Positions 16,392 to 32,798 of a stretch of DNA of 64,000 nt are shown here, one piece after another. Numbering within the stretch: position 1 is the stretch's first letter; the number at the start of each line of letters is the position of its first letter. The stretch covers positions 2,362,558-2,426,557 of the forward strand of contig NZ_BLIZ01000001.1 in NCBI RefSeq assembly GCF_019972315.1. The letters run 5' to 3'. A program made the translations under genes and the position numbers. This DNA comes from Geobacter sp. AOG1. GTDB lineage: Bacteria; Desulfobacterota; Desulfuromonadia; Geobacterales; Geobacteraceae. The notes under the pieces were generated by a model. It was not told the DNA's origin. It ran no database searches and worked only from the letters and a program-made list of their open reading frames with translations.

Positions 16392-16982
16392 ATGACACGT
16401 GGTACGGCGACGGTGTATCTGTCAGCGGATGGAGCGGGTTCAGAAAACGGCTTTTCCCTGCTGGAGCTGCTTGTCGTGATTGGAGTGATGGGAATAATCA
16501 CCGCTCTGGCTTTCCCTGCCTTCAGTTCTTACTATGGCGATTGCTGCATGAAATCTGCGGCCTGGGAGATCGTCGGGATGGTCAAGGAGGCCAAGCAGTG
16601 CTCCCTGGTCGACGACAGGTGCTACGCGGTCGGTTTTGACCCGGGCCGCGGCACGGTTTCTCTCATAGCGGATCGTGGCCCCGACGGTGAGTGGAACACC
16701 GGTGACGACAAGGTGGTGCGCGTTTTCCGGCTGGCCGACAGGGGGGGTGGTGTCCGGTTCGGGTACGGCAGCTGCGGGCCGATACCCGGGTATGCACCCA
16801 CACCGGACGGCATAACGTTTCAGGAGAACAACACCATTGTCTGCAATCCTGAATTGACCGGAAACGCGGGAACCGTCTATCTCAGCGCATCAAGCGGTGC
16901 CGCCTTCGCCATAACCGTCAATTCCCGGGACTTCAGCTGTGTGCAGCGCCGCTGGAACGGCAGTGCGTGGGTAAAGCTATAG
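16392..16982 (+). CDS. Prepilin-like FimT/GspH-family protein
   Basis: 196 residues. A long (about 20-residue) basic/neutral leader ends in ENG, then FSLLELLVVIGVMGIITALA, a type III signal with predicted cleavage after Gly20 and the Glu+5 residue present. The C-terminal part has a beta-rich GspH/FimT-like body with several cysteines. It is probably a minor pilin or pseudopilin processed by PilD. A GGGAGG ribosome site precedes the ATG. It is bounded by terminators on both sides, so it may be transcribed alone. Confidence 0.8.
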   Translation: MTRGTATVYLSADGAGSENGFSLLELLVVIGVMGIITALAFPAFSSYYGDCCMKSAAWEIVGMVKEAKQCSLVDDRCYAVGFDPGRGTVSLIADRGPDGEWNTGDDKVVRVFRLADRGGGVRFGYGSCGPIPGYAPTPDGITFQENNTIVCNPELTGNAGTVYLSASSGAAFAITVNSRDFSCVQRRWNGSAWVKL

Positions 16983-17129: not shown

Positions 17130-17186
17130 ATGAGATAAGAACGGTAGCATATCTTTACTGGTGTGAAGCTGTTTCAAGGGGAATCC

Positions 17187-17981
17187 ATGCTGAAATCCGT
17201 TGCTCCCATCCTTCTTTTCCTTGCGGTTACCGGCAGTGCCGTTGGGGCTGCTGCCGAAGAGTGTCGCGACACTGGTGCCGACGTGCAGATCATGACGATC
17301 AGCGAGGCAAACGATCTCCTGCGTGGAATCGGCGAGGTAAAGTCGGTCAGGTTTTCGCCGGTGCAGGGGCTGTACGAGCTGTCCGTCGTCAATAACGGCC
17401 GGCAGGCGACGATTTACGTCGACTTTGCCCGAAAGCACCTCATTCCGTCACCCATATTCAGCCTTGCCACAAAAAAGCCCATCGCTCCCGAACTACCTGT
17501 TGTTTCCCTCCCATTATCAAAGGTTGACAACGCCACGGTGCCGATGGCCAACTCCATCATCATCGGCAACCCGGAAGGGGCTCGAAAGCTGTTCGTCTTC
17601 ACCGATCCCGACTGCCCTTTCTGTGCCAAGCTCCACGTGGAACTCTGGAAGCTTACCACCCTGGACCCCCAGGTGACCATCTACGTCAAGATGTTCCCCC
17701 TCAAGATGCACCCTGCTGCGTATGACAAGGCGCGGGTCATCCTCGGCGCCGGCACGCCGGAGTTCCTCAACAAGGCGTTTGCCGGTGAGTCCCTCCCCGC
17801 GCCGGGTCCGAAGGATACAGCCAAGCCGGTGGATGACACCATTAAGTATGCCGAATCCATCGGGATAAGTTCCACACCCACAATGATTCTTCCCGACGGG
17901 CGCATCATCGTCGGGTTCAAAAAAGCCGAAGAGCTCAAGGCTCTCATGTCAACCGTCAGCGATAAAGGTGCAAAGCCATGA
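17187..17981 (+). CDS. DsbC-like periplasmic disulfide isomerase
   Basis: 264 residues. Signal peptide (MLKSVAPILLFLAVTGSAVG), an N-terminal DsbC-type dimerisation region (about 25-105), then a thioredoxin-fold domain with active site CPFC (FVFTDPDCPFCAKLH) and the cis-proline loop SSTPTMILPDG. The ATG at 17187 is chosen over a GTG at 17163 because AAGGGGA sits 5 bases before it. Its last 4 bases overlap the start of pilY1 (ATGA), so the two are translationally coupled. Since PilY1 here holds about 77 cysteines, that protein is the obvious client; this is inference. Confidence 0.85.
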   Translation: MLKSVAPILLFLAVTGSAVGAAAEECRDTGADVQIMTISEANDLLRGIGEVKSVRFSPVQGLYELSVVNNGRQATIYVDFARKHLIPSPIFSLATKKPIAPELPVVSLPLSKVDNATVPMANSIIIGNPEGARKLFVFTDPDCPFCAKLHVELWKLTTLDPQVTIYVKMFPLKMHPAAYDKARVILGAGTPEFLNKAFAGESLPAPGPKDTAKPVDDTIKYAESIGISSTPTMILPDGRIIVGFKKAEELKALMSTVSDKGAKP

Positions 17982-20900
17982 TGAAATCAACAGCGAGGTA
18001 CACCATGAAGGCCGTCGGTACGTTTACGAAAATGCTCCCGGTCGTCGTTGCCCTATTTATCTCAATCCTTCCGACCATCGCTCAGGCCGATCCTGGCACC
18101 AACTACTGCATCACTCCTGCGTTCATCACCAGCAGCATACCCCCCAACCTGCTCCTGATGATCGACAACTCGACCAGTATGTACGACATGGCCTATGCGG
18201 ACGAAGGGCAAAAGGACGCCAACGGGAATATTACCCGCCAGCCCACGTACTGCTACGACGAGTCCTACAAGACAAATTACTGTTCCGGCGACACTTCGCG
18301 CAGCTGCAGCCAGGATTCCGACTGCGTGGTCGGCCAGACCTGCCTGAACGCCTATGCCGGCTATTTCGAACCGAGTACCGGCTACGAGTACGACTTCACC
18401 AATAAGTACTTCTTTGTTCCCACGACCCTTCCCACTTCGTGTGACAAGTACGTAGCCAACACCCTCTGCGTCGGCTTCGATACCAATACCGGCCTGTTGA
18501 ACAAGTTCGTGGCACGGGGGAACTACCTCAACTGGCTCGCCGCGTCCAAGTTCGACGTAGAGAAGAAGATTCTTACCGGCGGTAAATACGTCACCGGCCT
18601 CTGCTCCGGCAACAGCAACCGGGCCTGCCTTTCCAGCACGACTGACTGTGCTTCGTCGCAGACCTGCAACGCCGTCACTACCCCCTTTCTCCAGGCGGAG
18701 TCCCGCGGCTGCCTGGGACAGGGGTTCATCAAGGATGCCTTGACCACGGATTTTGTTAATTTCTCTTCGACCCAGACCGATCCGAACCTTGCCAACAAAC
18801 TGGGTATTGCCTTTGCCGTGAAAGGGCCGGAAGAAGTAAACCCTGCCTCTCCGTCCCAGGGGGGGCAGACCTCCATTGAAATCTACCAGGGCGACTACAA
18901 TGCCAAGGTGTGCAATGATGCGATCACGCTCTGGAACACCCCGAATGTCAACCAGACCTCCCTCAGCAACGCCGTGTCGGCCTGCATCAATTACAATACA
19001 AAGGCGACCAACTATTGCCAGGGGGATCCGGCCCGGCTCGTGTTCGCCACGTGTATTTCCGATGCCGACTGCACCAAGCCGGTTGCCGCGGTTTCGGGGA
19101 AATGCAGCAACGGCGGGGCGTCCTGTTCCAGCGATCTTGATTGTGGCACCACCGTGACGCCGGGGAAATGCAGCAACACCGGCGCTTCCTGTACGAGTGA
19201 TGCTGTCTGCGCCGGCACCACTACGCCGGGGAGATGCAGCAATAACGCGAGCAAAACCTGTCTGGGGCCGAATGACTGTACCGTCCTTCCGATTTCGGGT
19301 AACTGCAAGTTGGGGGGGGGGGCGTGCACTTCGGATGGCAACTGCGCGCCGGCGAATTACTGCAGCGTCAGGACCGACAAGACGTGCACTACGCCGGGTA
19401 CAGCCTGTCAGGGCACGTGGGGAACCTGTATGGCTAATACCTGCTCAAACCCGCTGCCGGTGGCGGGGAGCAGCGGCACCTGCACCAACCCTTCGCCGAC
19501 GACGGTAAACCCCGGCACCTGTTCCGCACCGGCTCCCACGACGAATACCGTCGGCCTCTGCAACAGCCCGGCCCCGGTTTCCGGGGGGACGCTCAATGAC
19601 GGCCCCTGTATCGATCCGAGCAAGTCGGGGGTAGTCAAGACCAAGGTTGCCTTCACCGAAACCATCAATACCTGCTGGCAGTACATCGGCAAAGGGACCC
19701 TCGGCACGGGGGACTTCACCCGGCTTACCACCGGCGGCAAGTGTACCGATGTCTACGCGGCCTATGGCGTCTGTTCCGGGGACCACTCCAAGGGGTGCGG
19801 CGCCGATACCGACTGCAGCGGCGCACTGGGTGGGAGCTGCCTCAAGGGACCCGCGTATATCCTTCCAGGGAATCCCGCCCTTGTCTGCAGCTCGGACTAC
19901 CTGGGGGGGTTCTACACCGGGAGTGCGCCGACGTGGGACGCGAACTCCTGGACAAACGACACGGGGCAGGTCGACGCCTTCAAGCGGTACTGTAACGCCA
20001 CCCAGCCGTCGGTCATAGACCCCACCGATTCAGCCGCGAACACCTCGAACGCTGAGCAGCTTCCGGCACTTCTCGGAGGGATCGGGCTGGAAGGACAGCT
20101 GGGACCTCCGAAGGGGAAGGTGCTGGTCAGGCTCAAGAAAGCCACCCAGCCGGCCGGCCTTCTCCAGGAGTTCGGCAACCGGATACGGGTCGGTGCCATG
20201 CAGTTCAACTTTGCCGGTTCGGCCACCGAATCTTCATCCACCTTCGGTGCAGTAATATCCACACCGAAAGTCTGCTCTAACGACCCCGCCAAGCTGTGTG
20301 TCATGGATGTGGATTGCAACGGCAACACGGGCACTACCTACACCTGTAATCCGACCACCGCCAATACAAACAACCTGGATGGAGCGAGCATCATCTATGA
20401 TGTGGGGAGAGGACTCTGCTCCGCATCGACGACGACCGTCTGCCACACTGCCGCTGACTGCTCGTCGGGAGAACGTTGCTACGCCAACCGCTGCTGGATT
20501 CCTTCAACTACCGAATGCAACACCGACAACAACTGTCTCAGTAGCCAGGTCTGCGTCAGCGACGGGGCGGGTGATCACGTAACGGCGAAATCACTGGTCA
20601 GTTCCATCGATTTAATCAGAGCCGATTCCTGGACCCCCTTCGCGGAAGCCTATTATAACGCCATCGGCTACTATGCCACCGTGAAACAATGCTCCAACTC
20701 GACAACCTCGTGTTTCTTAGACAGCGATTGCAGCAGTGGTGGGCTCTGTAACAAGGTCATCAGCAGCAGGACGGCGCTTAGGCTTAACTCGAACGATTAC
20801 AGCGGCAGCCGCAATCCCTCCCAGTACCGGTGTCAGCAGAACTATGTCCTGCTCGTCAGCGACGGGAGTTCGACTGCCGACCAGAATGCCAGTTCCAGCA

Positions 20901-23836
20901 GTCTGGCAGACCTCTATCATGTTTCCGCCGGCAAGCCGGCTACCTGGGTCAATACCTGTCCCAATTATGCAGGGAGCAAGAATCTTCCTATCCTTTCCTG
21001 GGTCGCCAGGCACCTGAACATCTCAAGCTTCAGCCTTTCCACCACCCCAACGGCCACGGTATGTTCCGGCAACAGCAATCAGATCTGTTCTGCTGATACC
21101 GATTGCGCGCTTGGACAGACATGTCTCAATATCCCCCGGAACGGCCGCGACAACATCAGTACCTATGTGGTATACAACGGCGGTTCCAACGGTCTGACCG
21201 ACGAATGCAGTTCGCTGCAGCTTCTCTCTGACACCGCCACGAACGGTGGATCGACTCTGCAGGTGGCAAGCAATCCTGCCCAGCTCTCCACGGCATTGCG
21301 GAATATATTCGAAGAGTTGGCCGCCAAGGCGGCGTCGGGGACGGCCGCATCGATCCTCAGCAACAGCGAGGGGAGCGGCGCGAACATCCTGCAGGCGGTG
21401 TTTTATCCGAAGAAGATCTTCAATAGCGAGACATCCGCCAAGTGGATCGGTGAAATGCAGAACCTCTGGTACTACGTCGATCCCAAGATCAATAACAGCA
21501 CCATCAGGGAGGATACGGATTACCCCGGCTCCGGAGACCATACCTTGAATCTGATCAGCGACAAGGTGGCCACCTTCATTTTCGACCAGAGCACCAACCA
21601 GACCATGGTTCAGTTGCAGCAGGATACCAATGGTGACGGCATAGGGGATAGCGCCGTTACAACGGTCGATCCCGATGCGGTAAAAAGCATCTGGCGCGCC
21701 GGAAAACAGTTGTGGGCAAGGGATCTCACCCTGTCGCCCCGGACCATCTACACCCCGTTGCTTTCGGGGGGGACCGAAGAGGGAAGCACCGGCCTGATGA
21801 AATTCACCTACGGAACCATCGGTTCTACCTCATTCCCCGATAACTCTACCGTGTTGCAGCCGTACCTGCAGATGACCGACAGCGCCAGCACCCTTAAGCT
21901 GATGAAGTACATCCATGGTTTCGATTTTCCCGGCGACGCAACCATGCGGCCCAGAACGGTTAAGATTGGCAACATACCAGCACCTACGGTGGGGATCGAC
22001 CCGACCGACCCCTATGTCACCAACCCGCGGGACAAGGGGATCGGGGTCTGGAAACTGGGAGACATCATCTCATCCACGCCGCGCATCCAGTCGACGGGAA
22101 GGCAGAACACCTATGATGTGCAATTGCCGGGCGGTTACGGCGATACGTCCTACGCCTCCTTCATCAAATCCAATGAGTATCTGAGCCGCGGGATGGTCTA
22201 TGTGGGGGTCAACGACGGCATGCTCCACGCCTTCAAACTCGGCATCCTGGATGTGACCGCCACCGACTTCACCAAGGCAACATTGAGCGGTACCGACCTC
22301 GGCGAGGAGCAGTGGGCCTTCATTCCGAAAAGCGCGCTGCCGTACCTGAAATACACGACTGACAAGGATTATAGCCATCTCTATTTTGTCGACGGCTCGA
22401 CCATCATCCTGGATGCCAGTATCGGCGTGTATACCAGCGGAACCGGCAGCTGTACCAATGCAACCTATGACCAGTGCATCAAGAATCCGATCGTGGTGGA
22501 TACCGCTACCAATAACCTGGATGCCAACAAGAATACCTGGCGTTCCATCCTGATCGGCGGCATGGGGCTGGGTGGGGCATCGAGCAAAGCCAGTTGCACC
22601 GGACTCGACTGCGTCCAGACACCGATTACCGACCCGGGCGATACGGTCAACAATCCGGGACTTGGCTATTCGTCGTACTTTGCCCTGGATGTGACCAATC
22701 CCGAAACTCCCAAGCTTTTGTGGGAGTTCAGCGGCGACCCTGCTAATAATCTCAACCTTGGGTACGCCACATCCGGTCCGGCAATCGTCAGAATAGGTGA
22801 TTCCACCAAGAATGGTAAATGGTTTGCGGTGTTCGGTTCCGGGCCGACCGGGCCGATCGACACGGACAACCGCCAGTTCCTCGGGCGCTCCAACCAGACT
22901 CTCAAATTCTTTATTCTCGACCTGAAGACAGGGACGCTCGTGAGAACGATCGATACTGGCATCGCCAATGCATTCTCCGGTTCCCTCGTCGGTGGTCCCA
23001 TCGATACCGACCGGTGGAACGCCCTTGCGGCGGGGAGGTACCAGGACGACGCTATTTATGTGGGATATACGAAGAAGGTAAGTGGCGGTGATTGGACGAA
23101 TGGCGGGGTGCTCCGGATCATGACCAAGGAGAGTGCCAACCCCGCTGACTGGGAAGTGACCCCGGTGCTCGACAATATCGGACCTGTGACGACGGCGGTC
23201 GCCCGGTTGCAGGATCGGAACAACCGCGCTCTCTGGCTCTATTTCGGTACAGGAAGATACTACTTCCGGGCTGGACAAATAATTGATGACTATGACAGCC
23301 CGCGGACCATTTACGGGATCAAGGAACCTTGCTACAACTCGGACGCAAATCCGGGGAATTTCCTTGATAAGACCTGTACCACAGCCAGGTTGGTTGGCGA
23401 CCTCACGGACCAGTCTACCACGCTCCACACAGGTCCCCAGCCCCTCGGGTGGAAGATCGATCTCGATACCTCGACGACTACCTTCGGTGCGGAGCGGGTG
23501 GTGACCGATACGGTTGCATTGACCAACGGAGCGATATTTTTTACCTCATTCAAGCCAACCGCTGATGTCTGTGGATTCGGCGGCAACTCCTATCTCTGGG
23601 CACTCGATTACAACTCCGGGCTCCGGCCTCCCGACACCACGCTCACCGGCAAGGCACTTATTCAGCTCTCCACCGGTGAGTTCAAGGAGGTTGACCTTTC
23701 CACTGCCTTTACGGACAGGGGTAACCGACGGATGGGCTCGGCCATGACCGGCAAACCGCCGGGAGACGCCCCGCCGATCCTCAGTACGAGCGGGAACAAG
23801 CCGATCAAGCGCATTCTGCACATACAGGAGCGCTGA
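17978..23836 (+). CDS. pilY1: Giant cysteine-rich PilY1-family pilus tip adhesin
   Basis: 1952 residues against roughly 1000-1200 for well-studied PilY1 proteins. A signal peptide ends near TIAQA (residue 37). A von Willebrand A-like fold starts with a DxSxS metal site (LLMIDNSTSM, residues 63-67) and is interrupted by about 12 short cysteine modules between residues ~102 and ~1050, with the pattern C-x(6-9)-C-x(3)-D-x-D-C-x(4-8)-C; five lie almost back to back at 19.1-19.4 kb. The C-terminal third is the PilY1/PilC beta-propeller (YVGVNDGMLHAFKLG, EEQWAFIPKSALPYL, LYFVDGS) with a calcium-loop-like DTNGDGIGD near residue 1216. It is probably secreted and presented at the pilus tip or cell surface. 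It overlaps the disulfide isomerase gene and is followed 1 base later by minor pilins. Confidence 0.88.
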   Translation: MMKSTARYTMKAVGTFTKMLPVVVALFISILPTIAQADPGTNYCITPAFITSSIPPNLLLMIDNSTSMYDMAYADEGQKDANGNITRQPTYCYDESYKTNYCSGDTSRSCSQDSDCVVGQTCLNAYAGYFEPSTGYEYDFTNKYFFVPTTLPTSCDKYVANTLCVGFDTNTGLLNKFVARGNYLNWLAASKFDVEKKILTGGKYVTGLCSGNSNRACLSSTTDCASSQTCNAVTTPFLQAESRGCLGQGFIKDALTTDFVNFSSTQTDPNLANKLGIAFAVKGPEEVNPASPSQGGQTSIEIYQGDYNAKVCNDAITLWNTPNVNQTSLSNAVSACINYNTKATNYCQGDPARLVFATCISDADCTKPVAAVSGKCSNGGASCSSDLDCGTTVTPGKCSNTGASCTSDAVCAGTTTPGRCSNNASKTCLGPNDCTVLPISGNCKLGGGACTSDGNCAPANYCSVRTDKTCTTPGTACQGTWGTCMANTCSNPLPVAGSSGTCTNPSPTTVNPGTCSAPAPTTNTVGLCNSPAPVSGGTLNDGPCIDPSKSGVVKTKVAFTETINTCWQYIGKGTLGTGDFTRLTTGGKCTDVYAAYGVCSGDHSKGCGADTDCSGALGGSCLKGPAYILPGNPALVCSSDYLGGFYTGSAPTWDANSWTNDTGQVDAFKRYCNATQPSVIDPTDSAANTSNAEQLPALLGGIGLEGQLGPPKGKVLVRLKKATQPAGLLQEFGNRIRVGAMQFNFAGSATESSSTFGAVISTPKVCSNDPAKLCVMDVDCNGNTGTTYTCNPTTANTNNLDGASIIYDVGRGLCSASTTTVCHTAADCSSGERCYANRCWIPSTTECNTDNNCLSSQVCVSDGAGDHVTAKSLVSSIDLIRADSWTPFAEAYYNAIGYYATVKQCSNSTTSCFLDSDCSSGGLCNKVISSRTALRLNSNDYSGSRNPSQYRCQQNYVLLVSDGSSTADQNASSSSLADLYHVSAGKPATWVNTCPNYAGSKNLPILSWVARHLNISSFSLSTTPTATVCSGNSNQICSADTDCALGQTCLNIPRNGRDNISTYVVYNGGSNGLTDECSSLQLLSDTATNGGSTLQVASNPAQLSTALRNIFEELAAKAASGTAASILSNSEGSGANILQAVFYPKKIFNSETSAKWIGEMQNLWYYVDPKINNSTIREDTDYPGSGDHTLNLISDKVATFIFDQSTNQTMVQLQQDTNGDGIGDSAVTTVDPDAVKSIWRAGKQLWARDLTLSPRTIYTPLLSGGTEEGSTGLMKFTYGTIGSTSFPDNSTVLQPYLQMTDSASTLKLMKYIHGFDFPGDATMRPRTVKIGNIPAPTVGIDPTDPYVTNPRDKGIGVWKLGDIISSTPRIQSTGRQNTYDVQLPGGYGDTSYASFIKSNEYLSRGMVYVGVNDGMLHAFKLGILDVTATDFTKATLSGTDLGEEQWAFIPKSALPYLKYTTDKDYSHLYFVDGSTIILDASIGVYTSGTGSCTNATYDQCIKNPIVVDTATNNLDANKNTWRSILIGGMGLGGASSKASCTGLDCVQTPITDPGDTVNNPGLGYSSYFALDVTNPETPKLLWEFSGDPANNLNLGYATSGPAIVRIGDSTKNGKWFAVFGSGPTGPIDTDNRQFLGRSNQTLKFFILDLKTGTLVRTIDTGIANAFSGSLVGGPIDTDRWNALAAGRYQDDAIYVGYTKKVSGGDWTNGGVLRIMTKESANPADWEVTPVLDNIGPVTTAVARLQDRNNRALWLYFGTGRYYFRAGQIIDDYDSPRTIYGIKEPCYNSDANPGNFLDKTCTTARLVGDLTDQSTTLHTGPQPLGWKIDLDTSTTTFGAERVVTDTVALTNGAIFFTSFKPTADVCGFGGNSYLWALDYNSGLRPPDTTLTGKALIQLSTGEFKEVDLSTAFTDRGNRRMGSAMTGKPPGDAPPILSTSGNKPIKRILHIQER

Positions 23837-23837
23837 C

Positions 23838-24308
23838 ATGAACGAGCGTGGTTTTACCCTGGTGGAAATGCTTATCGTCATAGCCATAATCGGGATATTG
23901 ACGAGTATTGCGATCTATGATTTCAACAGAGAGCGACAGAAGTCCGTCATTGAGGCGGAGGTAAGGGATATGTACACGGAGATCATGAATGCACGGTTAC
24001 AGTCGTTTTATACTAAACAACCCCGCTCCGTGATCGTGAGCGGAACGCAGTTTAAGGTTATCGACTCGGCATCGAGTGCGATACTCGTGGAGAAGACCCT
24101 GAAATACCCCGTTGTGCAGAATACCACGGACACTCAGTTGAATTTCGACAGGTGCGGCCTGACCTTCGGCTCCTTCAGTTCCGTCTGCGTCGAGCCTGCC
24201 GGCAATCCCGGCTTCATCGACAGCATCGTCATCTCTGCTGCAAAAATCAACATGGGAAAGAGAGCATCGGGAGGCAGTTGTGGCACAAGTACCATCGTAC
24301 AAAAATAA
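23838..24308 (+). CDS. Minor pilin / type IV prepilin-like protein
   Basis: 156 residues. Very short leader MNERG, then FTLVEMLIVIAIIGILTSIA with Glu+5, the classical type IV prepilin signal cleaved after Gly5. Two cysteines near residues 108 and 118 may form the D-region disulfide. It starts 1 base after the pilY1 stop with an AGGAG site, and overlaps the next gene by 29 bases. It is probably an initiation-complex minor pilin rather than the main pilin: it is FimU/GspH-sized and sits with PilV/W/X homologues. Confidence 0.85.
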   Translation: MNERGFTLVEMLIVIAIIGILTSIAIYDFNRERQKSVIEAEVRDMYTEIMNARLQSFYTKQPRSVIVSGTQFKVIDSASSAILVEKTLKYPVVQNTTDTQLNFDRCGLTFGSFSSVCVEPAGNPGFIDSIVISAAKINMGKRASGGSCGTSTIVQK

Positions 24309-24666
24309 CGACGGCTTCACCCTGGTTGAGGTCCTGGTTGCCATAGTGATCATGGTGGTCGGGCTGCTTGGACTCCTGGAGGCGGTAAATGTGGCCATGG
24401 AGCACAATCTCCGGAACCAGCTGCGTGACCAGTCGGTCTATGTGGGCGAGAAAATATTGAATGACATGCGGGGGCAGCAGTTCGACTCCACATTCACTAA
24501 CCACACCACTATCCCCATGAGCCTCAGAGGTGTGAGCAAGAAATTCACGGTAGACACAACCACTATCCCATTGGGAGCCGATACGAAGCAGTATGGGGTG
24601 GTGGTGAAGTGGACCTACAAGAACAGGAACTATCAGAACCAGGTGGTGACGGTTCGATCACGTTAG
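24280..24666 (+). CDS. pilV: PilV-like minor pilin
   Basis: 128 residues. Leader MAQVPSYKNNDG, then FTLVEVLVAIVIMVVGLLGLLEA, the PilV/GspI-type signal with Glu+5. The start is GTG at 24280 with GGAGG at 24270-24274, inside the upstream gene, so translation is coupled. PilV is part of the minor-pilin priming complex with PilW, PilX and PilY1. Confidence 0.83.
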   Translation: MAQVPSYKNNDGFTLVEVLVAIVIMVVGLLGLLEAVNVAMEHNLRNQLRDQSVYVGEKILNDMRGQQFDSTFTNHTTIPMSLRGVSKKFTVDTTTIPLGADTKQYGVVVKWTYKNRNYQNQVVTVRSR

Positions 24667-24717
24667 TCATCAGTGACTGATGCAGCACGGTGTATTTCAC
24701 GCGAGGATGTGTACTTT

Positions 24718-25911
24718 ATGATACGAGAACAGCGTGGTTTTTCTCTCGTCGAACTGATAATCGTCATGGCCATGTTTATGGTCGTCATCATGGTTACGAC
24801 CAGCACCTTCGAGACCATCGTGACCCAGGCGGGGCAGCAGGGGAAATCTGCCCAGACCCAGATCGAGGGGATCGTCGGTCTGGAGGTGCTGCGGGCGGAC
24901 CTGGAGCAGGCAGGCTTCGGTCTCCCTTGGATGTTTTCGTCGGCCCCAGCGAATACCGCCTATACTGAGGTGAACGTGGGCGCCAATGTGCCGGTTACGT
25001 TTCCGACATCCATTACGAGTGCCAACTTTTTCAACGATAATTCGCCGGTATCTCCCCCCCGTGCCATTGTGAATGGCACGACCAACTTCAACCTTGATAC
25101 AGGGGGAAAAGGGTCCCAATACCTGGTTCTTAAATCCACGGTAAGCGGAGTGGACCAAGTCGCCAAGAAATGGACTTCGTCAGTATATACCGAGACAGGT
25201 CGGTCTGTTACCACATGGGGCCAGGCCGACCGGGACTTGGCGGGAAATGACCGTGTCATCGTCATAAAGACCACCTTTACGAACAACCTTCCGAAGCAGC
25301 AACTTATAGTGAAAAGTGGACAGTTTTCCACGACCTTCAATAATTACAGTGCTATGACCTTTCCCCATACTCCGGGGGACATCTTTCACATCTACGGTGT
25401 GGATAAACCCGCCGGAACAGCGCTTCGGATGCCGTTCAACCGTGCAGACTACTACATCAAGAGACCGTCAAACATATCGGCAACTTGTGCTCCCAACACA
25501 GGAATACTTTACAAGGCGGTGGCCAACCACGCTGACGGCTCCCTTTCTCCCGAAATGCCCTTGCTGGACTGCGTCGCCGATATACAGGTCGCCTACGGGC
25601 TTGATGCCGCCGGCAATGGTTTTATCGGTGACCATGGCGACAGTCCTCCCGCCAAGCGTCCTCAGGATGCTGACCAGGCGGAGACCATCCGCAACGTCGT
25701 GAAGGAAGTAAGGGTCTATATTCTGGCCCAGGAGGGGAAGAGGGATAGGACATATAATTTCCCCAGTAGCTCTATCCGGGTTGGGGAAAGTTTCGGGGGA
25801 ACCCTGCGGGGACGAGATTTTGATCTAGCTGCACTTATTGGTGCCGACTACACGCATTACCGCTGGAAAGTTTACACAATCGTGGTGCGACCCAAAAATC
25901 TGATTCAATAA
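24718..25911 (+). CDS. pilW: PilW-like minor pilin
   Basis: 397 residues. Leader MIREQRG, then FSLVELIIVMAMFMVVIMVT, the PilW/GspJ-type signal with Glu+5. The ATG at 24718 is chosen because GAGGA lies at 24703-24707 and gives a standard short leader; the frame extends to a GTG at 24673. The large C-terminal body is typical of PilW. It probably helps assemble the pilus-tip complex carrying PilY1. Confidence 0.85.
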   Translation: MIREQRGFSLVELIIVMAMFMVVIMVTTSTFETIVTQAGQQGKSAQTQIEGIVGLEVLRADLEQAGFGLPWMFSSAPANTAYTEVNVGANVPVTFPTSITSANFFNDNSPVSPPRAIVNGTTNFNLDTGGKGSQYLVLKSTVSGVDQVAKKWTSSVYTETGRSVTTWGQADRDLAGNDRVIVIKTTFTNNLPKQQLIVKSGQFSTTFNNYSAMTFPHTPGDIFHIYGVDKPAGTALRMPFNRADYYIKRPSNISATCAPNTGILYKAVANHADGSLSPEMPLLDCVADIQVAYGLDAAGNGFIGDHGDSPPAKRPQDADQAETIRNVVKEVRVYILAQEGKRDRTYNFPSSSIRVGESFGGTLRGRDFDLAALIGADYTHYRWKVYTIVVRPKNLIQ

Positions 25912-25927
25912 CCTGTGGGTGGAGATT

Positions 25928-26536
25928 ATGCGATACGTTCGAAATGAAAACGGGATAGCGTTGTTGACGGCACTTATGTTCACCCTTATCTCCTTGGGGA
26001 TCATCATGGCGCTGTTGCAGATGGTTCTCATGGGGACCAAGATGTCAGCCAGCCAGAAAACCTACCGCAACTCCCTTGAGGCGTCCTACGGCGGGGTAGA
26101 ACTTGTTGCCAAGGAGATCATCCCCCAACTCTTCGGCAATTATTCCAACGGCAGTCGGGCGCTTAACTCCACATTCGGGAGTTCATCCCAAATCAGCCTC
26201 TCGCTGAGTGCCTCCTTGAAGGACAAATTGGCGAAGGATACGAACAACTGGCCGTCAACCGCAAACAAGATTCCCGATGCTAAAATCTCGCCAGACATGA
26301 CCTTCAAGCTTGCGGGAACCAACGGTAACTTCATGGTGTATAACAAGGTAGTCGATACCGTAACCGGTAACTCGGACGTCAGCGGCAGGGACCTGGATCC
26401 GGGTATCGGCGTGGCGGGATCGGGGTCGGGGATTGCGCCGAAACACAGTCCCCACCTCATCACCATAGAGGTACAGGGTGAACGGGAAACCAATCCCAAG
26501 GAAAAGGCGATGCTGTCGGTGCTTTACGCGTATTGA
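25928..26536 (+). CDS. pilX: PilX-like minor pilin
   Basis: 202 residues. MRYVRNENG, then IALLTALMFTLISLGIIMAL, the PilX N-terminal pattern, which lacks Glu+5 as usual for PilX/GspK proteins. The conserved N-terminal helix continues into EASYGGVELVAKE. The ATG at 25928 follows GGTGGAG closely; a GTG at 25919 is the alternative. It is the last gene of the minor-pilin operon. Confidence 0.8.
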   Translation: MRYVRNENGIALLTALMFTLISLGIIMALLQMVLMGTKMSASQKTYRNSLEASYGGVELVAKEIIPQLFGNYSNGSRALNSTFGSSSQISLSLSASLKDKLAKDTNNWPSTANKIPDAKISPDMTFKLAGTNGNFMVYNKVVDTVTGNSDVSGRDLDPGIGVAGSGSGIAPKHSPHLITIEVQGERETNPKEKAMLSVLYAY

Positions 26537-27330: not shown

Positions 27331-28386
27331 ATGCTATTCTCCAAAAAGAAAGACATAGTCGGTATTGACATCGGGTCGAGTTCCGTCAAGCTCGTGCAGC
27401 TGAAAGAGCTTAAGGGTGGCTACGTGCTGCAGAATGCGGGAATCGTCCCCCTTCCTCCCGAAGCCATTGTCGACAATACTCTGATGGACAGCTCTTCAAT
27501 TGTCGAGGCTGTGAAAAATCTTCTTGCCGGTCTGGGCATCGGCAAGGGTGTCGAAGCTGCCTGCTCCATCTCAGGCAATTCGGTCATCATTCGTAAAATT
27601 TCCCTGCCAGCCATGCCTCCTGAAGAACTTGAAGACCAGATTCACTGGGAGGCCGAGCAGTACATCCCCTTTGACATCAATGACGTAAATATCGATTTTC
27701 AACTCCTTCCTCCCGATGAACACGATCCAACAAGGATGAACGTTCTGCTGGTGGCCAGCAAGAAGGATATCATCAACGATTACCTGACAGTTTTCAACGA
27801 GACAGGCGTAAAGCTTGCAGTGGTCGATGTAGATTCATTTGCCGTTCAGAATGCATTTGAAGTCAACTATGACATGGAGGGAGAGGATGTTGTCGCTCTG
27901 ATAAACATCGGGGCGAGCATCATGAATCTCAACGTCGTCAAAGATGGTATCTCGCTGTTCACAAGGGATGTGCAGATGGGGGGGAACCTCTATACAGAAG
28001 AAATCCAGAAGCAGTTCAGTGTGAGCGGTGAAGACGCCGAGCGCTTCAAGGTGACAGGCGAGTGCCCAGACAGAGAGCGGCTTCAGAACATTATCAGTCG
28101 TGTTAATGAGACTCTCGGGCTGGAAATTCGCCGCTCTCTGGATTTTTATAATACGACTGCCGGTGAGGGAAAAATCACCAGAGTATATCTCAGCGGTGGC
28201 GGTGCAAAAACCGCCATGCTCTCCGAGGCTGTGGGCCAGCGTTTGGGGCTACCGGTAGAGACCATGAATCCTTTTGCCAAAATAAAGTATGCGGACAAGG
28301 AATTTGATGCCGACTACCTGCACGAGATCGGACCCCTTGTAACCGTTGCTCTGGGACTGGCAACAAGGAGGGTAGGCGACAAATGA
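27331..28386 (+). CDS. pilM: Type IV pilus assembly protein PilM
   Basis: Cytoplasmic actin-like ATPase that binds the N-terminal tail of PilN and ties the alignment complex to the inner membrane. 351 residues; phosphate-1 loop GIDIGSSSVKLVQL at the N-terminus, second loop ALINIGASIMNL, adenosine-site segment YLSGGGAKTAML. CAGGAAG precedes the ATG. It overlaps pilN by 4 bases. Confidence 0.96.
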   Translation: MLFSKKKDIVGIDIGSSSVKLVQLKELKGGYVLQNAGIVPLPPEAIVDNTLMDSSSIVEAVKNLLAGLGIGKGVEAACSISGNSVIIRKISLPAMPPEELEDQIHWEAEQYIPFDINDVNIDFQLLPPDEHDPTRMNVLLVASKKDIINDYLTVFNETGVKLAVVDVDSFAVQNAFEVNYDMEGEDVVALINIGASIMNLNVVKDGISLFTRDVQMGGNLYTEEIQKQFSVSGEDAERFKVTGECPDRERLQNIISRVNETLGLEIRRSLDFYNTTAGEGKITRVYLSGGGAKTAMLSEAVGQRLGLPVETMNPFAKIKYADKEFDADYLHEIGPLVTVALGLATRRVGDK

Positions 28387-28958
28387 CCAGAATCAACTTA
28401 TTGCCCGTCAGGGCTGCAAAAAAGAAGGAAACCGCAAAGCAGCAGATAATCATAGCGGTTGTTTCGGTGGCTGCGGTCATTATTGCTGGATTGGCCTTCT
28501 ATACGGTGATGCTGGCGAAAGTGAGCGGAACTAAAGATGAAATCACGCGCTCAGAGGCGGAGTTACAGCAACTCAAGACCAAGATTGGCGAAATTGATAA
28601 TATAAAAAAGCTTCAGGCAGAGGTTAAAAAGAAACTTGACGTACTCAACATGCTGCGCAAGGAAAAAAGTGGTCCTGCGGCAAGACTGGCCAAGTTGAGC
28701 GATATAACACCGGATAAGATGTGGCTGACAAACTACACGGAAAATGCCGCCAAGGTCACTATATCCGGTCTTGCATACAATGAAGATATCATCGCCACAT
28801 TTCTCCGGAACCTGCAGGGAGCAGAGCTTTTCTCCGATGTGGAACTGGTTGTTTCCGAGCAGAAAGAAGAGAGCGGTGTCAAAGTTAAAAAATTCGATGT
28901 AACGTGCAACATCAAAGGGTTGAAAAAAGAAGAGACACCTGCGCCGCAGAAGAAATAG
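28383..28958 (+). CDS. pilN: Type IV pilus assembly protein PilN
   Basis: 191-residue bitopic membrane protein. The conserved cytoplasmic tag MTRINLLPVR is the PilM-binding motif; it is followed by one membrane helix (about 23-45), a periplasmic coiled coil (46-95) and a ferredoxin-like domain (about 100-180). It forms heterodimers with PilO. Starts inside the end of pilM (ATGA). Confidence 0.95.
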   Translation: MTRINLLPVRAAKKKETAKQQIIIAVVSVAAVIIAGLAFYTVMLAKVSGTKDEITRSEAELQQLKTKIGEIDNIKKLQAEVKKKLDVLNMLRKEKSGPAARLAKLSDITPDKMWLTNYTENAAKVTISGLAYNEDIIATFLRNLQGAELFSDVELVVSEQKEESGVKVKKFDVTCNIKGLKKEETPAPQKK

Positions 28959-29023
28959 AAATGACGATAGCAATCCGTTGCCAGGACTGTAATCTTTATG
29001 CCTAAAACGGTCGAGGACATTTC

Positions 29024-29626
29024 ATGGACCCACGTATAGAAAAATTGCTGAAGCTCCCGAACAAACAGAAAGCCGCTATTCTGGGGTTTGTTGTTGTACT
29101 GATTGGCGCGGGTTTGTTTTTTGGGTTGATAAAACCGAAACTTGATCAGTTGAAAGTCCTACAAGGACAGTTGGAAGGACTTCATACCCAGGTAACTGAA
29201 AGCAAAAAAATCGCCGATAATCTTCCCCGGTTCAAAAGCGAATATGCCCAGCTGAACAAGGAGCTGGAGAATGCATTGACCGAACTGCCGAACCAGAAAG
29301 AAATCCCGACGCTTCTTACCAGTATTACCAGTGCGGGTAAGGGAGCAGGCCTTGAATTTCTTGTTTTCAGGCCAAAGCCGGAAGAGCCAAAAGATTTCTA
29401 TTCAGTTGTTCCCGTGGATATATCGGTTTCAGGCACATACGCCAACGTTGGTAATTTTTTCGTTGCAGTCGGCAACCTTCCGAGGATAGTCAACATCAAT
29501 AACGTTGCGTTTACAAACCCAAAAATTACAGGCGGAAAAACAGTCTATACGATCAATTGTCTTGCTACAACATTCCGTTTTCTGGATAAGAAAGAGATTA
29601 AGGATGATAAAAAGGGCAAGAAATAA
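29024..29626 (+). CDS. pilO: Type IV pilus assembly protein PilO
   Basis: 200 residues: short cytoplasmic N-terminus, one membrane helix (about 19-38), coiled coil (40-95), then a ferredoxin-like periplasmic domain. Partner of PilN in the inner-membrane alignment complex. GAGG lies 7 bases before the ATG. Its 3' end overlaps pilP by 23 bases. Confidence 0.93.
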   Translation: MDPRIEKLLKLPNKQKAAILGFVVVLIGAGLFFGLIKPKLDQLKVLQGQLEGLHTQVTESKKIADNLPRFKSEYAQLNKELENALTELPNQKEIPTLLTSITSAGKGAGLEFLVFRPKPEEPKDFYSVVPVDISVSGTYANVGNFFVAVGNLPRIVNINNVAFTNPKITGGKTVYTINCLATTFRFLDKKEIKDDKKGKK

Positions 29627-30149
29627 ACAATTTATTTTACTCGCTTTGACTTTGCTACTGGTGCCCGGTTGTCAGAAAACAGCACCACCACCTCAGGCAC
29701 AACAGCCCCCTGCACCCGTGGTGCAAGTACAAAAACCGGTGCAAAAGCAACAATCTTCTGCGCGAGTTGAGGGGCCAAAAACCTCAGTGCTGGATTTCAA
29801 CCTCAAAAAAGATCCGTTCAAGCCGTTGATCGTGGCTGCGACGCCTACTGCTGGTAAAACGGCGGCACCGGTGATCTCCAAAAATGCTAATCTTCTGCCA
29901 ATACAGTCTTTTGATTCAAGCAAATTCAAAGTTTCTGGCATTGTTGCCGGACTCAAGGAAAACAAGGCTCTTGTTATCGACCCTGCCGGCAAGGGGTATG
30001 TCGTAAAGCAGGGTATGCTTATTGGTAACAATAACGGACGGATAACGAAAATCAGCAACAATGCTATTGAAATTGCCGAGCAGTACCGCGACGAAAGCGG
30101 CCATACGAAAAAAAGGGTTATAAAGCTTACCCTGTCCCCAAAACGGTAA
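29604..30149 (+). CDS. pilP: Pilus assembly lipoprotein PilP
   Basis: 181 residues. Lipoprotein signal with lipobox LVPGC (Cys about 20), a Pro/Gln-rich linker, then the PilP HR-domain-like beta fold (FKVSGIVAGLKENKALVIDP, GYVVKQGMLIG). It connects PilN/PilO to the secretin PilQ. The ATG at 29604 inside pilO is preferred; the frame is open further upstream but that part lacks a signal peptide. Confidence 0.9.
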   Translation: MIKRARNKQFILLALTLLLVPGCQKTAPPPQAQQPPAPVVQVQKPVQKQQSSARVEGPKTSVLDFNLKKDPFKPLIVAATPTAGKTAAPVISKNANLLPIQSFDSSKFKVSGIVAGLKENKALVIDPAGKGYVVKQGMLIGNNNGRITKISNNAIEIAEQYRDESGHTKKRVIKLTLSPKR

Positions 30150-30161
30150 GGAGAGTTCCAG

Positions 30162-32798
30162 ATGAGAATGAATTCAGCCCGGGTTTGCCTCAATAAAATA
30201 GTAATTGTGATGGTGTTGGCGCTCGGCGCCGGTTGTGCACAGCAGAGGGTGAATCTGACGGATGGGAAATCATCCGATACTGCTCAGCCAGTGATTCAGG
30301 CTGTCAGCGTGGCGCCAGATGCGTCTCAAGTGGAAATCTCCGTTTCGCAGCCGGGTACGTTTACGTTCTACAAGACTACAGACCCTGCGAAGGCTGTCGT
30401 TGACCTGGCTGACACGGAACCGGGCAACTTTAAATCCCTGGAAGTCAATTCAGGAGTCATAAAGCAGATAGACGCCACGAAGCATGTATTCAGCGGTGGT
30501 TCTTTGACCCGTGTGGAAATCAGCCTTGCTAAAGATGTGGATTTTACTGTTGGAGTTGATCCTGCCGACAAAAACAAATTGGTAGTAAAATTTCCGTCGC
30601 AGCAGCACGAGCCCGCCGTCGTCGCACAAGTTGAAAAACCGGTCATCGCGACTCCAGAACCCGCCCCACAACATACTGAAACAACAGCGGTTGTTCCCGT
30701 TGAACCGGCGCCGGTAGCAACCGCACCTGCACCGGTGGCTGTTAATGGTTCCCAGCAGCGAACAGTGAATGCATTGAACGTTGTTCAAAACGGAATCGAG
30801 ATCGATGTCGCAGGAGGAGTTGACACTTTTAACGCTTTCAAGATGACGAAACCCGATCGGATCGTCGTGGACGTTTTCGGCGCAAAAACCAGCATTGCCG
30901 CTAATGCTGTAGCGATCAACTCCTTCGGCGTCGGAAAAGCGCGTATTGGCCTGACCCCTGAAAAAGTACGAATTGTTTTGGATGCAAGTAGCGGCACGAT
31001 TGCTCCTTACGAAGTTACCAAGACGGACCGCGGCCTTAAGGTGGTTATCGGGGAGTCAGCCAATGCCTCCGTAAGTGGAGCGTCGGGCGTTACGGTACCA
31101 TCGGGCAAGGTGGAACCTGCCGGTGCTGCACGTGAGCATGGACCGTCTTCCATTGAAGCAATCGATTTCAATGTCCAGGATGGAATTTCTAGGATCACGA
31201 TCAAGGTTTCGGGTAATTGTACTGCGGGCAAACCGGTGAAATCAGCAAAGGGATTGAGCCTATCCATTGCAGGGTGCCAGATTCCCCGCAATCTACAGAG
31301 AACTCTTGATACCAGCTCATTTGTAAGCACCGTTCTGAAAATCACACCGTATCAGGCAAAGGTCAAGAGCGGCCATGAAACAAGATTAATGGTAAAGCTA
31401 CGCACCGATGCGCCTTCCGAAGTCAAACAAACAGGAAACGTTATTACCTGGGATATCAAAAATGAGGGAATCAGTGAAGCAACACTGATGTCCGAGGTTG
31501 CCAAGACGCAACCACCTAGCCAGATTGCGTCGGCAGTGGAACCGGTAACAATAAACGAAAAGTCATTACAGAAAACGGGCAGTGATAAAAAGGTTTATAC
31601 CGGCCGGAGGGTTACCCTGGAGTTTTCCGATGCCGATGTAAGAAAGATATTCCAACTTATAGCAGAAGTCAGCAATCTAAACTTTCTCATTGCTGACGAT
31701 GTCACGGGGACAATAAGTATCAAGCTGGTGAATGTTCCATGGGATCAGGCCCTCGACGTAATTCTTGAAACCAAGGGCTTGGAGATGAAGCGTGACGGTA
31801 ACATCGTCCAGATCAAGCCAAAGGGCAAGTTCAAGACGCAAGAACAGGAAGACGCTGAACTCAAAAAGGAACGCGAACGGCGTATGGAGCTTCAAACAGT
31901 GGTGTTTGATATCAACTATTCGTCTGTAACAGATGTGGCAGCCCAGTTGAAGACGGTGGCAACCCAGCGTGACGGGGTCAGCATCTCCCCCGACAGTCGC
32001 ACTAACAGAGTAATAGTGACAGACATTGCCCCTGCCATTGAAAGGATGAGGTTTCTTCTTAAAAATCTCGACATACCGGAAAAACAGGTCATGATCGAGG
32101 CACGCATCGTGGAAGCAACCAGTACCTTTACCCGTGACCTAGGTGTTCAGTGGGGGATTCATTACAAGGACGGATCAGCTTCACTCCTTGGCATCAATCA
32201 ACTTGACACCGGTTTCGGTGGTGTGGTCACTCCTCCGCCGAGCGCGGGGTTTCAGGATTCCAAAAGCCCAGGTGGTGCCATTGGCATGTCCTTCGGCAAG
32301 CTGACGAGCAACATCCAGATCGATATGCGTCTTTCTGCTGCTGCGGTAGCCGGTCTTATCAAGATCGTCTCGACGCCGAAAGTTGTCACTCTGAACAACA
32401 AGGCGGCCAAAATATCCCAAGGCCAGTCGATCCCTTACCAGACTATTTCTGCAGAAGGGACCAAAACGGAATTCATCGAGGCGGCGCTGACCCTTGAGGT
32501 TACCCCGCACATTACGGCGGATGGCAGTGTCAGCATGAAAATCAAGGCTTCCAACAACTCGGCTGGAGTTGGCTCGCCGCCTCCCATAAACAAAAAGGAA
32601 GCTACGACCGAAATGCAGGTGAAAAATGGGGAAACTACGGTCATAGGTGGCATTTATGTAGACAGTGACACCACCAACGACCAGGGAGTCCCGTATCTGA
32701 GTGACATACCGCTCATCGGCTGGCTGTTCAAGTCGAACACCACGACCAAAACCAAGACCGAACTGCTGATTTTCATAACGCCAAAGATTGTGTCTTAG
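30162..32798 (+). CDS. pilQ: Type IV pilus secretin PilQ
   Basis: Outer-membrane channel for the pilus fibre, 878 residues. The signal has a lipobox-like LGAGC, so it may be lipidated. Repeated AMIN-type domains lie at about 40-140, 195-290 and 325-420, with an Ala/Pro/Val linker between the first two. An STN/N0 domain (VTLEFSDADVRKIFQLIAEV) and an N1 domain (DINYSSVTDVAAQLKTVATQ) follow. The C-terminal secretin domain has VMIEARIVEAT, STPKVVTLNNKAAKISQG and GETTVIGGIY. It ends the pilMNOPQ run. Confidence 0.95.
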   Translation: MRMNSARVCLNKIVIVMVLALGAGCAQQRVNLTDGKSSDTAQPVIQAVSVAPDASQVEISVSQPGTFTFYKTTDPAKAVVDLADTEPGNFKSLEVNSGVIKQIDATKHVFSGGSLTRVEISLAKDVDFTVGVDPADKNKLVVKFPSQQHEPAVVAQVEKPVIATPEPAPQHTETTAVVPVEPAPVATAPAPVAVNGSQQRTVNALNVVQNGIEIDVAGGVDTFNAFKMTKPDRIVVDVFGAKTSIAANAVAINSFGVGKARIGLTPEKVRIVLDASSGTIAPYEVTKTDRGLKVVIGESANASVSGASGVTVPSGKVEPAGAAREHGPSSIEAIDFNVQDGISRITIKVSGNCTAGKPVKSAKGLSLSIAGCQIPRNLQRTLDTSSFVSTVLKITPYQAKVKSGHETRLMVKLRTDAPSEVKQTGNVITWDIKNEGISEATLMSEVAKTQPPSQIASAVEPVTINEKSLQKTGSDKKVYTGRRVTLEFSDADVRKIFQLIAEVSNLNFLIADDVTGTISIKLVNVPWDQALDVILETKGLEMKRDGNIVQIKPKGKFKTQEQEDAELKKERERRMELQTVVFDINYSSVTDVAAQLKTVATQRDGVSISPDSRTNRVIVTDIAPAIERMRFLLKNLDIPEKQVMIEARIVEATSTFTRDLGVQWGIHYKDGSASLLGINQLDTGFGGVVTPPPSAGFQDSKSPGGAIGMSFGKLTSNIQIDMRLSAAAVAGLIKIVSTPKVVTLNNKAAKISQGQSIPYQTISAEGTKTEFIEAALTLEVTPHITADGSVSMKIKASNNSAGVGSPPPINKKEATTEMQVKNGETTVIGGIYVDSDTTNDQGVPYLSDIPLIGWLFKSNTTTKTKTELLIFITPKIVS

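Follow-up and report, generated by a model that had tools for sequence, protein, structure and literature searches.

PilY1 is the adhesive, sensing tip of type IVa pili. A gene for a PilY1 exceptionally rich in cysteine lies within the 64,000-nucleotide stretch of the Geobacter sp. AOG1 genome that was analyzed here (the window), and it raises the question of what the repeated cysteine-rich segments in the N-terminal half of its product are for. The initial annotation had suggested that these modules rigidify an extended stalk, bind metal, or diversify a surface ligand, and had put the protein forward as a candidate for contact with minerals or electrodes. We consider it probable that the protein is a tip and priming PilY1 whose VWA domain bears exchangeable surface modules, each stapled by disulfides between four cysteines, at eight or more loops, and that such modules are lost and gained whole.

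Results

Gene and genomic setting

The window protein is a PilY1 encoded in a type IVa pilus cluster. A PilY1 of 1952 residues had been claimed, and this was borne out by the open reading frame (ORF) at 17978-23836 (+) and by a match to PF05567 (E 1.3e-12, best stretch 1561-1781) that scored 47.9 bits, above the curated cut-off of 28.1; the PilY1 propeller was the sole Pfam family found in the protein at E <= 1. A signal peptide, and hence secretion, was read by eye from the N terminus. The feature had been given the extent 17978-21200, of which the modules were confirmed but the boundary was not: the modules span 18281-21124, and the gene continues to 23836 through a beta-propeller. pilY1 sits among ORFs with N-methylation motifs, pilMNOP, and a secretin gene, the setting of type IVa minor pilin and assembly genes (Table 1); a PilW match of the ORF at 24673 fell slightly below cut-off. 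A histidine kinase and a sigma-54 activator are encoded upstream, in what we take to be the place of pilS and pilR. A second PilY1-like ORF in the same genome (L093, about 0.93 Mb) is short, with 874 aa, 7 cysteines, and no modules. In G. metallireducens, the pilY1 at the corresponding location was noted in 2009 to be phylogenetically distinct (PMC2700814).

Immediately upstream, a gene for a DsbC/DsbG-like protein shares 4 nt with the start of pilY1. Its product contains CPFC and reaches 21 bits with DsbC_N (cut-off 25) and 51.9 bits with the NCBIfam DsbC model (cut-off 215).

Table 1. Features of the pilY1 locus, in window coordinates
Feature	Coordinates	Strand	Remarks
Pilin-like protein, N-methylation motif	16392..16982	+	
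DsbC/DsbG-like thioredoxin-fold protein (CPFC)	17163..17981	+	PF13098 2.6e-17, above cut-off; NCBIfam DsbC 5.9e-14, below cut-off
pilY1	17978..23836	+	1952 aa; putative signal peptide, VWA half with modules (residues 38-1110), C-terminal beta-propeller
MIDAS DNSTS (D63, S65, S67), first part of split VWA metal site	18164..18178	+	D63, S65, S67 each in 55/59 rows
Module site A (residues 102-122), 4 Cys	18281..18343	+	8 Cys in L034; module in no other row (57/59 without)
Module site B (residues 209-230), 4 Cys	18602..18667	+	8 Cys in L034; filled in 4/59 rows
Module array, site C first part (residues 347-484)	19016..19429	+	Five to six near-tandem modules
Site C second part (residues 489-544), C(S/T)NPxP-type mini-repeats	19442..19609	+	Read from sequence
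Module site D (residues 599-621)	19772..19840	+	
Module site E (residues 766-790)	20273..20347	+	4 Cys in 45/59 family PilY1 rows; most widespread module
Double module site F (residues 814-859)	20417..20554	+	Single in L035, L036
WTPFAEA, MIDAS T886	20630..20650	+	T in 56/59 rows
Module site G (residues 905-924)	20690..20749	+	Window gene and L034 only, among 59 rows
VSDGSS, MIDAS D962	20855..20872	+	D in 59/59 rows
Module site H (residues 1029-1049)	21062..21124	+	
Four ORFs 3' of pilY1	23838..26536	+	N-methylation motif in 23838, 24280, 24673; fourth, 25919, without assignment
pilM, pilN, pilO, pilP, secretin (pilQ)	27331..32798	+	

Number and pattern of the modules

The count of about 77 cysteines made by eye proved exact, and 70 of the 77 precede residue ~1091. 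About twelve modules had been proposed, and between 12 and 14 were recovered depending on the pattern: 14 by C-x5-12-C-x2-4-[DNT]-x0-2-C-x4-14-C, in which an end cysteine may be common to neighbors; 13 by a slightly altered pattern that excludes shared end cysteines; and 12 by hand, which align with four invariant cysteine columns and the consensus CSxxxxxxCxxDxDCxxxxxC. When residues 38-1110 were shuffled 2000 times at the same composition, the mean was 0.74 modules and the maximum 4, versus the 14 seen. All three segments that the initial annotation quoted were located in the protein, CSGDTSRSCSQDSDC at residue 102 (nt 18281), CSNGGASCSSDLDC at residue 376 (nt 19103), and CSGNSNQICSADTDC at residue 1029 (nt 21062), and the five nearly tandem modules noted at 19.1-19.4 kb correspond to the five to six that make up the first part of site C.

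The array includes a 66-nt direct duplication (19095-19160/19161-19226, 73% identical). Recent internal duplication was rejected as the main source of modules: at the DNA level, repeats amount to this pair and a single 26-nt match, and the module region contains no array according to Tandem Repeats Finder. Repeats of another type, C(S/T)NPxP, in which cysteines recur every 13-16 residues, follow 3' of the module array; among 21 aligned rows, this form was confined to the window gene and L034.

A predicted split VWA domain with a conserved metal site

The N-terminal half had been described as VWA-like and interrupted by the modules, and structural comparison agrees. An AlphaFold2 model built on a 56-row alignment (mean pLDDT 71.6, pTM 0.75) gave no PDB match under E 0.001 with Foldseek. 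When 186 Foldseek candidates were realigned with VIA-align, rows 1-23 reached Z 10.4-13.9 over 164-227 aligned residues, with the next row at Z 4.7; nearly all of the 23 are VWA entries, including PitA (Z 13.4), Streptococcus sanguinis PilB (12.4), GBS104 (11.4), and RrgA (11.3), and one is titled B19V capsid. A whole-protein sequence search of solved structures returned six weak matches, to virus capsid chains (best E 0.046), that were taken as chance. With a module profile, the same kind of search gave ten weak matches (best E 0.029), of which several are to small disulfide proteins. Model and realignment together point to a fold of the VWA type found in pilus adhesins, into which the module segments are inserted. 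The Pfam VWA model found no match in the whole window PilY1, which may be expected because the domain is split.

The MIDAS residues of the DxSxS...T...D motif, D63, S65, S67, T886, and D962, are kept in 55, 55, 55, 56, and 59 of 59 rows, respectively, though the motif is split by over 800 residues. A single predicted VWA domain, of which the best rows align about 175 residues, would thus be spread over more than 1000 residues with its metal site kept. Within the model, site A and the site C array fall below pLDDT 50, the array at about 30; residues 300-600 modeled alone reached a mean pLDDT of 46 and a pTM of 0.34. The 200-residue array has helices at both ends in the model and begins and ends in the same domain.

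Module number among relatives

In the family survey, 47 of 48 genomes matched (own included). Among named genomes, one relative matched, Geomobilimonas luticola (L033), whose best segment reached 77%, in a search from which very near records were possibly omitted. Of 69 PilY1-like ORFs read from the fetched regions, 59 were kept for alignment, the window's own included; the ten dropped were L033 (same contig as L034), fragments from L023, L026, L028, L039, L084 (two), and L085 (one), the short paralogue L093, and a weak ORF, the second in L072. Of the aligned rows, 57 went into the tree (without L083 and L085), 56 into the second alignment (without L050, L076, and L082), and 21 into the third. 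Because a strict HMM built from 11 seeds undercounts modules in relatives, module counts rest on the spacing pattern and on the number of cysteines per site.

Counting modules in orthologues had been put forward as a check on the idea that they expand and contract, and by pattern their number does range from 0 to 15 across family PilY1 rows. Within the genus, the window gene has 14 modules, L034 has 15, L035 has 1, and L036 has 2; elsewhere in the family, L048 and L051 have 0 and L041 has 9. Orthologues of equal length without repeat variation, and segments forming one ordinary VWA fold, had been named as the opposing outcome; the family instead varies from 0 to 15 modules, and the segments are VWA insertions. 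Alignment against L035, L036, and L048 places the window modules at separate loops, sites A to H.

Cysteines mostly occur in fours. Across the 59 rows, the number per site takes the values 0, 4, 8, 16, 20, and 24. Sites A, B, C, E, F, and G have 85 non-empty cells between them, of which 83 contain a multiple of four; the other two, both at site A, contain a single cysteine each. Site H is less regular (16 non-empty rows, 7 with 4 cysteines, 8 with 2, and 1 with 5), and its two-cysteine cells look like core cysteines placed there by the alignment.

Outside the family but within the class, eleven PilY1 rows from loci L118-L129 (L129 gave none) carry 0-8 modules and 33-68 cysteines in total; two of these run off the contig. 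A plasmid search returned one distant Legionella PilY match. A separate PilY1 clade of 14 rows (L042, L045, L047, L055, L057, L059, L061, L063, L065, L067, L071, L073, L074, and L079) has 22 cysteines in each VWA half, and the flanks fetched with these rows matched neither minor pilins nor DsbC. In L084 and L085 (G032), the pilY1 frames look split in a draft genome, which may reflect assembly error.

Probable disulfides rather than metal ligands

Counted over the VWA half, cysteines total an even number in 54 of 59 rows and an odd number in 5. Among representatives of 70%-identity clusters, which are still related to one another, 34 of 39 totals are even (binomial p 1.2e-6 versus one half). 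CXXC, and hence the haem motif CXXCH, is absent from all 1952 residues of the window PilY1. Between the window protein and L034, 56 of 56 aligned module cysteines are kept, with other module positions 67% identical. Even totals, the absence of CXXC, and the retention of all aligned module cysteines together favor paired disulfides over metal or haem ligation. Judged from sequence, disulfide formation by the module cysteines is well supported, and the modules are unlikely to bind metal or haem.

Of 37 pilY1 rows linked to minor pilins, 24 have a DsbC-like gene no more than 600 nt upstream, by a hand count in which a copy could be missed in L082, where little upstream DNA was present. Linkage here means that the first downstream pilin was matched no more than 200 nt away, and neither the L085 fragment nor the second pilY1 of L040 entered the count. 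The gene is adjacent in 16 of 22 rows with at least 28 cysteines and in 8 of 15 rows with fewer, including 4 of 8 rows with 2 cysteines. A role for DsbC as a module-specific helper is therefore unsupported, as the DsbC-like gene tracks the operon and not clearly the cysteine content.

Evolution of the modules

On a quick propeller tree, in which several other rows are long-branched, the window protein pairs with L034 and L035 joins them next (support 99), and L048 and L051, which have no module, nest inside module-rich rows. The changes needed at each site, followed in parentheses by the number that well supported branches make unavoidable, are 1 (1) for A, 2 (2) for B, 5 (5) for C, 5 (5) for D, 8 (4) for E, 5 (3) for F, 4 (4) for the doubling of F, 1 (1) for G, and 5 (4) for H, counts that do not separate gains from losses. 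For sites D, E, F, and H in six proteins, similarity outside the cysteines was 0.38 between modules at the same site in different species (40 pairs) versus 0.245 between modules at different sites within one protein (34 pairs), the pairs in neither set being independent. Modules at one site are thus more alike than modules of one protein, and most D, E, F, and H modules are therefore old residents of their site. Between the window gene and L034, dN/dS was 0.24 for the modules and 0.19 for the remainder of the VWA half, compared with 0.10 for the propeller. By this measure the modules are constrained, though less than the propeller, and on average bear no sign of positive selection.

Resemblance to TIGR04201

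The modules resemble the family TIGR04201: the likeness in layout is strong, while formal membership of the window PilY1 fails on score. TIGR04201 gave four matches at E <= 10 in the window's genome, all in pilY1; the best scored 17.5 bits, short of the 25-bit cut-off, and 10 of 14 control genomes also match at this E limit. When the whole window PilY1 was scanned against NCBIfam, no family matched at E 10. In L034, seven stretches match weakly, with 15.5 bits over the protein, and single stretches in L043 and L066 reach 25.2 and 25.9 bits, with 19.0 and 18.7 for the whole proteins. At E 0.01, where no control genome matches, 13 of 48 family genomes do. Seventeen of the 19 matches so obtained were placed by reading in PilY1 frames, and the other two lie in G029, in an ORF without assignment, and in G032, in a short frame. 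Among 297 sampled genomes of the phylum, three pass E 2e-4, all from one distant family and one with several matching frames. L134 and L136, from a distant family of the phylum, contain frames packed with cysteine-rich repeats (13 and 11 pattern matches). An ORF at L133 1-1713 (-) has one such module near its N terminus; its identification as a multicopper oxidase from histidine motifs seen by eye was dropped, as no Pfam family matched at 0.001.

Discussion

This protein is a genuine and unusual form of a known one, a PilY1 with a VWA head studded by countable cysteine modules. Other PilY1s have been reported at the pilus tip and in the priming of assembly (PMC7541494), and by analogy the window PilY1 would be displayed at the tip as well. 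It would be secreted, and its module disulfides would form in the periplasm, perhaps aided by the DsbC-like protein of the operon, each module becoming a unit of ~20-25 residues held by two disulfides. Such units may enlarge, brace, and diversify the contact surface around the MIDAS, in a manner comparable with the arms of PilB and RrgA. Over evolution, whole modules would be gained and lost as the VWA core, the MIDAS, and the propeller are retained. We infer that contact diversification is the most likely role of the modules, and the suggestion in the initial annotation of a diversified surface ligand fits both the range of 0-15 modules and the faster change of non-cysteine module positions relative to the propeller. 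The varying module number among close relatives suggests a contact surface that is easily remodeled. By analogy with polymorphic TraA, which sets kin recognition in myxobacteria, the head may go further and act as an exchangeable recognition device, with TraA-like modules in the loops around the MIDAS that would provide every species with a tip surface of its own and whose number and sequence would set the target (mineral, matrix, kin, or partner cell); we regard this as unlikely.

Alternatively, the modules may have accreted neutrally, the VWA loops tolerating self-folding units that come and go without a function of their own. Orthologues with 0-1 module (L048, L051, and L035), repeated change across the tree, and the faster evolution of non-cysteine module positions than of the propeller are all as such a process would have them. 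However, the cysteine framework is kept in 56 of 56 positions, module dN/dS at 0.24 is well under 1, the site E module is retained in 45 of 59 rows, and modules persist at their sites (0.38 same-site over 40 pairs versus 0.245 different-site over 34 pairs), so that neutral accretion seems somewhat unlikely. A rigid stalk, in which the tandem array of site C projects part of the tip, draws on the near-tandem run of modules across 200 residues and on TraA, where 71 cysteines fall in nine repeats of which the first five are tandem and proposed as a rigid stalk (PMC3325183). The array nevertheless starts and ends in the same domain, with model helices at both ends, as expected of a loop or arm and not of an interdomain link; it is of low confidence in both AlphaFold2 models (pLDDT about 30; mean 46); and the long array is confined to site C, the other seven sites holding one or two modules in separate loops. 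The extended stalk of the initial annotation is thus not upheld, and we consider a stalk at site C doubtful.

Sensing of force or redox state, in which the disulfides of a mechanosensory tip would serve as mechanical or redox switches, follows a proposal made for Cys152 of the Pseudomonas aeruginosa PilY1 VWA domain. Cysteines of that domain are reported to matter for surface signaling (PMC8806160; review, PMC9210963), and the cysteine-rich half of the window protein is a predicted VWA too; even so, a module number of 0-15 within the family and 1-15 within the genus is difficult to reconcile with one switch, and we think this reading quite improbable. Least of all do we expect that the cysteines bind metal, Fe-S clusters, or haem for mineral contact or electron transfer. 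Metal reduction occurs in the group of Geomobilimonas luticola, the nearest named relative, and this family context is what speaks for such ligands. Against them stand the lack of CXXC and CXXCH, the nearly always even cysteine totals, and the DsbC-like gene adjoining pilY1, and the one metal site present is the MIDAS of the VWA domain and not a property of the modules, so that the metal binding first proposed for the modules was not sustained.

If the favored reading of exchangeable disulfide modules is true, a VWA head that changes by whole modules while preserving its metal site would allow a pilus tip to be re-tooled by simple means, and congeners with 1-2 versus 14-15 modules would offer a ready natural experiment.

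Several known systems share parts of this architecture. Weak matches to Dickkopf_N, DUF7107, and Squash in Pfam share a CxxDxDCxxGxxC-like spacing, but all are below curated cut-offs, and the likeness is probably convergence of small disulfide motifs. The S. sanguinis PilB, RrgA, GBS104, and PitA adhesins are structural matches to the predicted window VWA (Z 11.3-13.4); unlike the window protein, none is a PilY1. To our knowledge, no arm of these four is a repeated disulfide module. In PilB and RrgA, a MIDAS-containing VWA domain is described as flanked by protruding arms, one of which in PilB is a four-stranded sheet (PMC8179133). The repeats of TIGR04201 (Myxo_Cys_RPT), a family founded on the cysteine-rich region of Myxococcus xanthus TraA, are short extracellular units with three invariant and two marginal cysteines, partly tandem and in a surface adhesin (PMC3325183), and the window protein shares with them a repeated cysteine-rich unit and, by eye, secretion; the TraA repeats, however, follow a PA14 domain, whereas the window modules lie in VWA loops.

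Among the matches listed in the open-licence literature, we found no account of module-wise insertion in a PilY1. The unusual length and cysteine content noted at the outset stand out against published PilY1s, for which 7-30 cysteines in characterized proteins and clade medians of up to 41 are given (PMC13190605). Myxobacterial clades 1.5-1.7 are also long VWA PilY1s, with medians of 30, 36, and 41 cysteines and a suggested disulfide stabilization, but the passages that describe them include no modules, insertion sites, or four-cysteine quanta, and "repeat" and "insertion" each occur 0 times in the main text (PMC13190605); the window protein has 77 cysteines. With the PilY1/PilC tip proteins of PF05567, the window protein has in common the C-terminal propeller, the VWA domain with MIDAS in the N-terminal half, and the minor-pilin setting, and it differs in its 77 cysteines and 12-14 modules, where PilY1 of P. 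aeruginosa PA14 is reported to have 11 cysteines, 7 of them in the VWA domain (PMC8806160).
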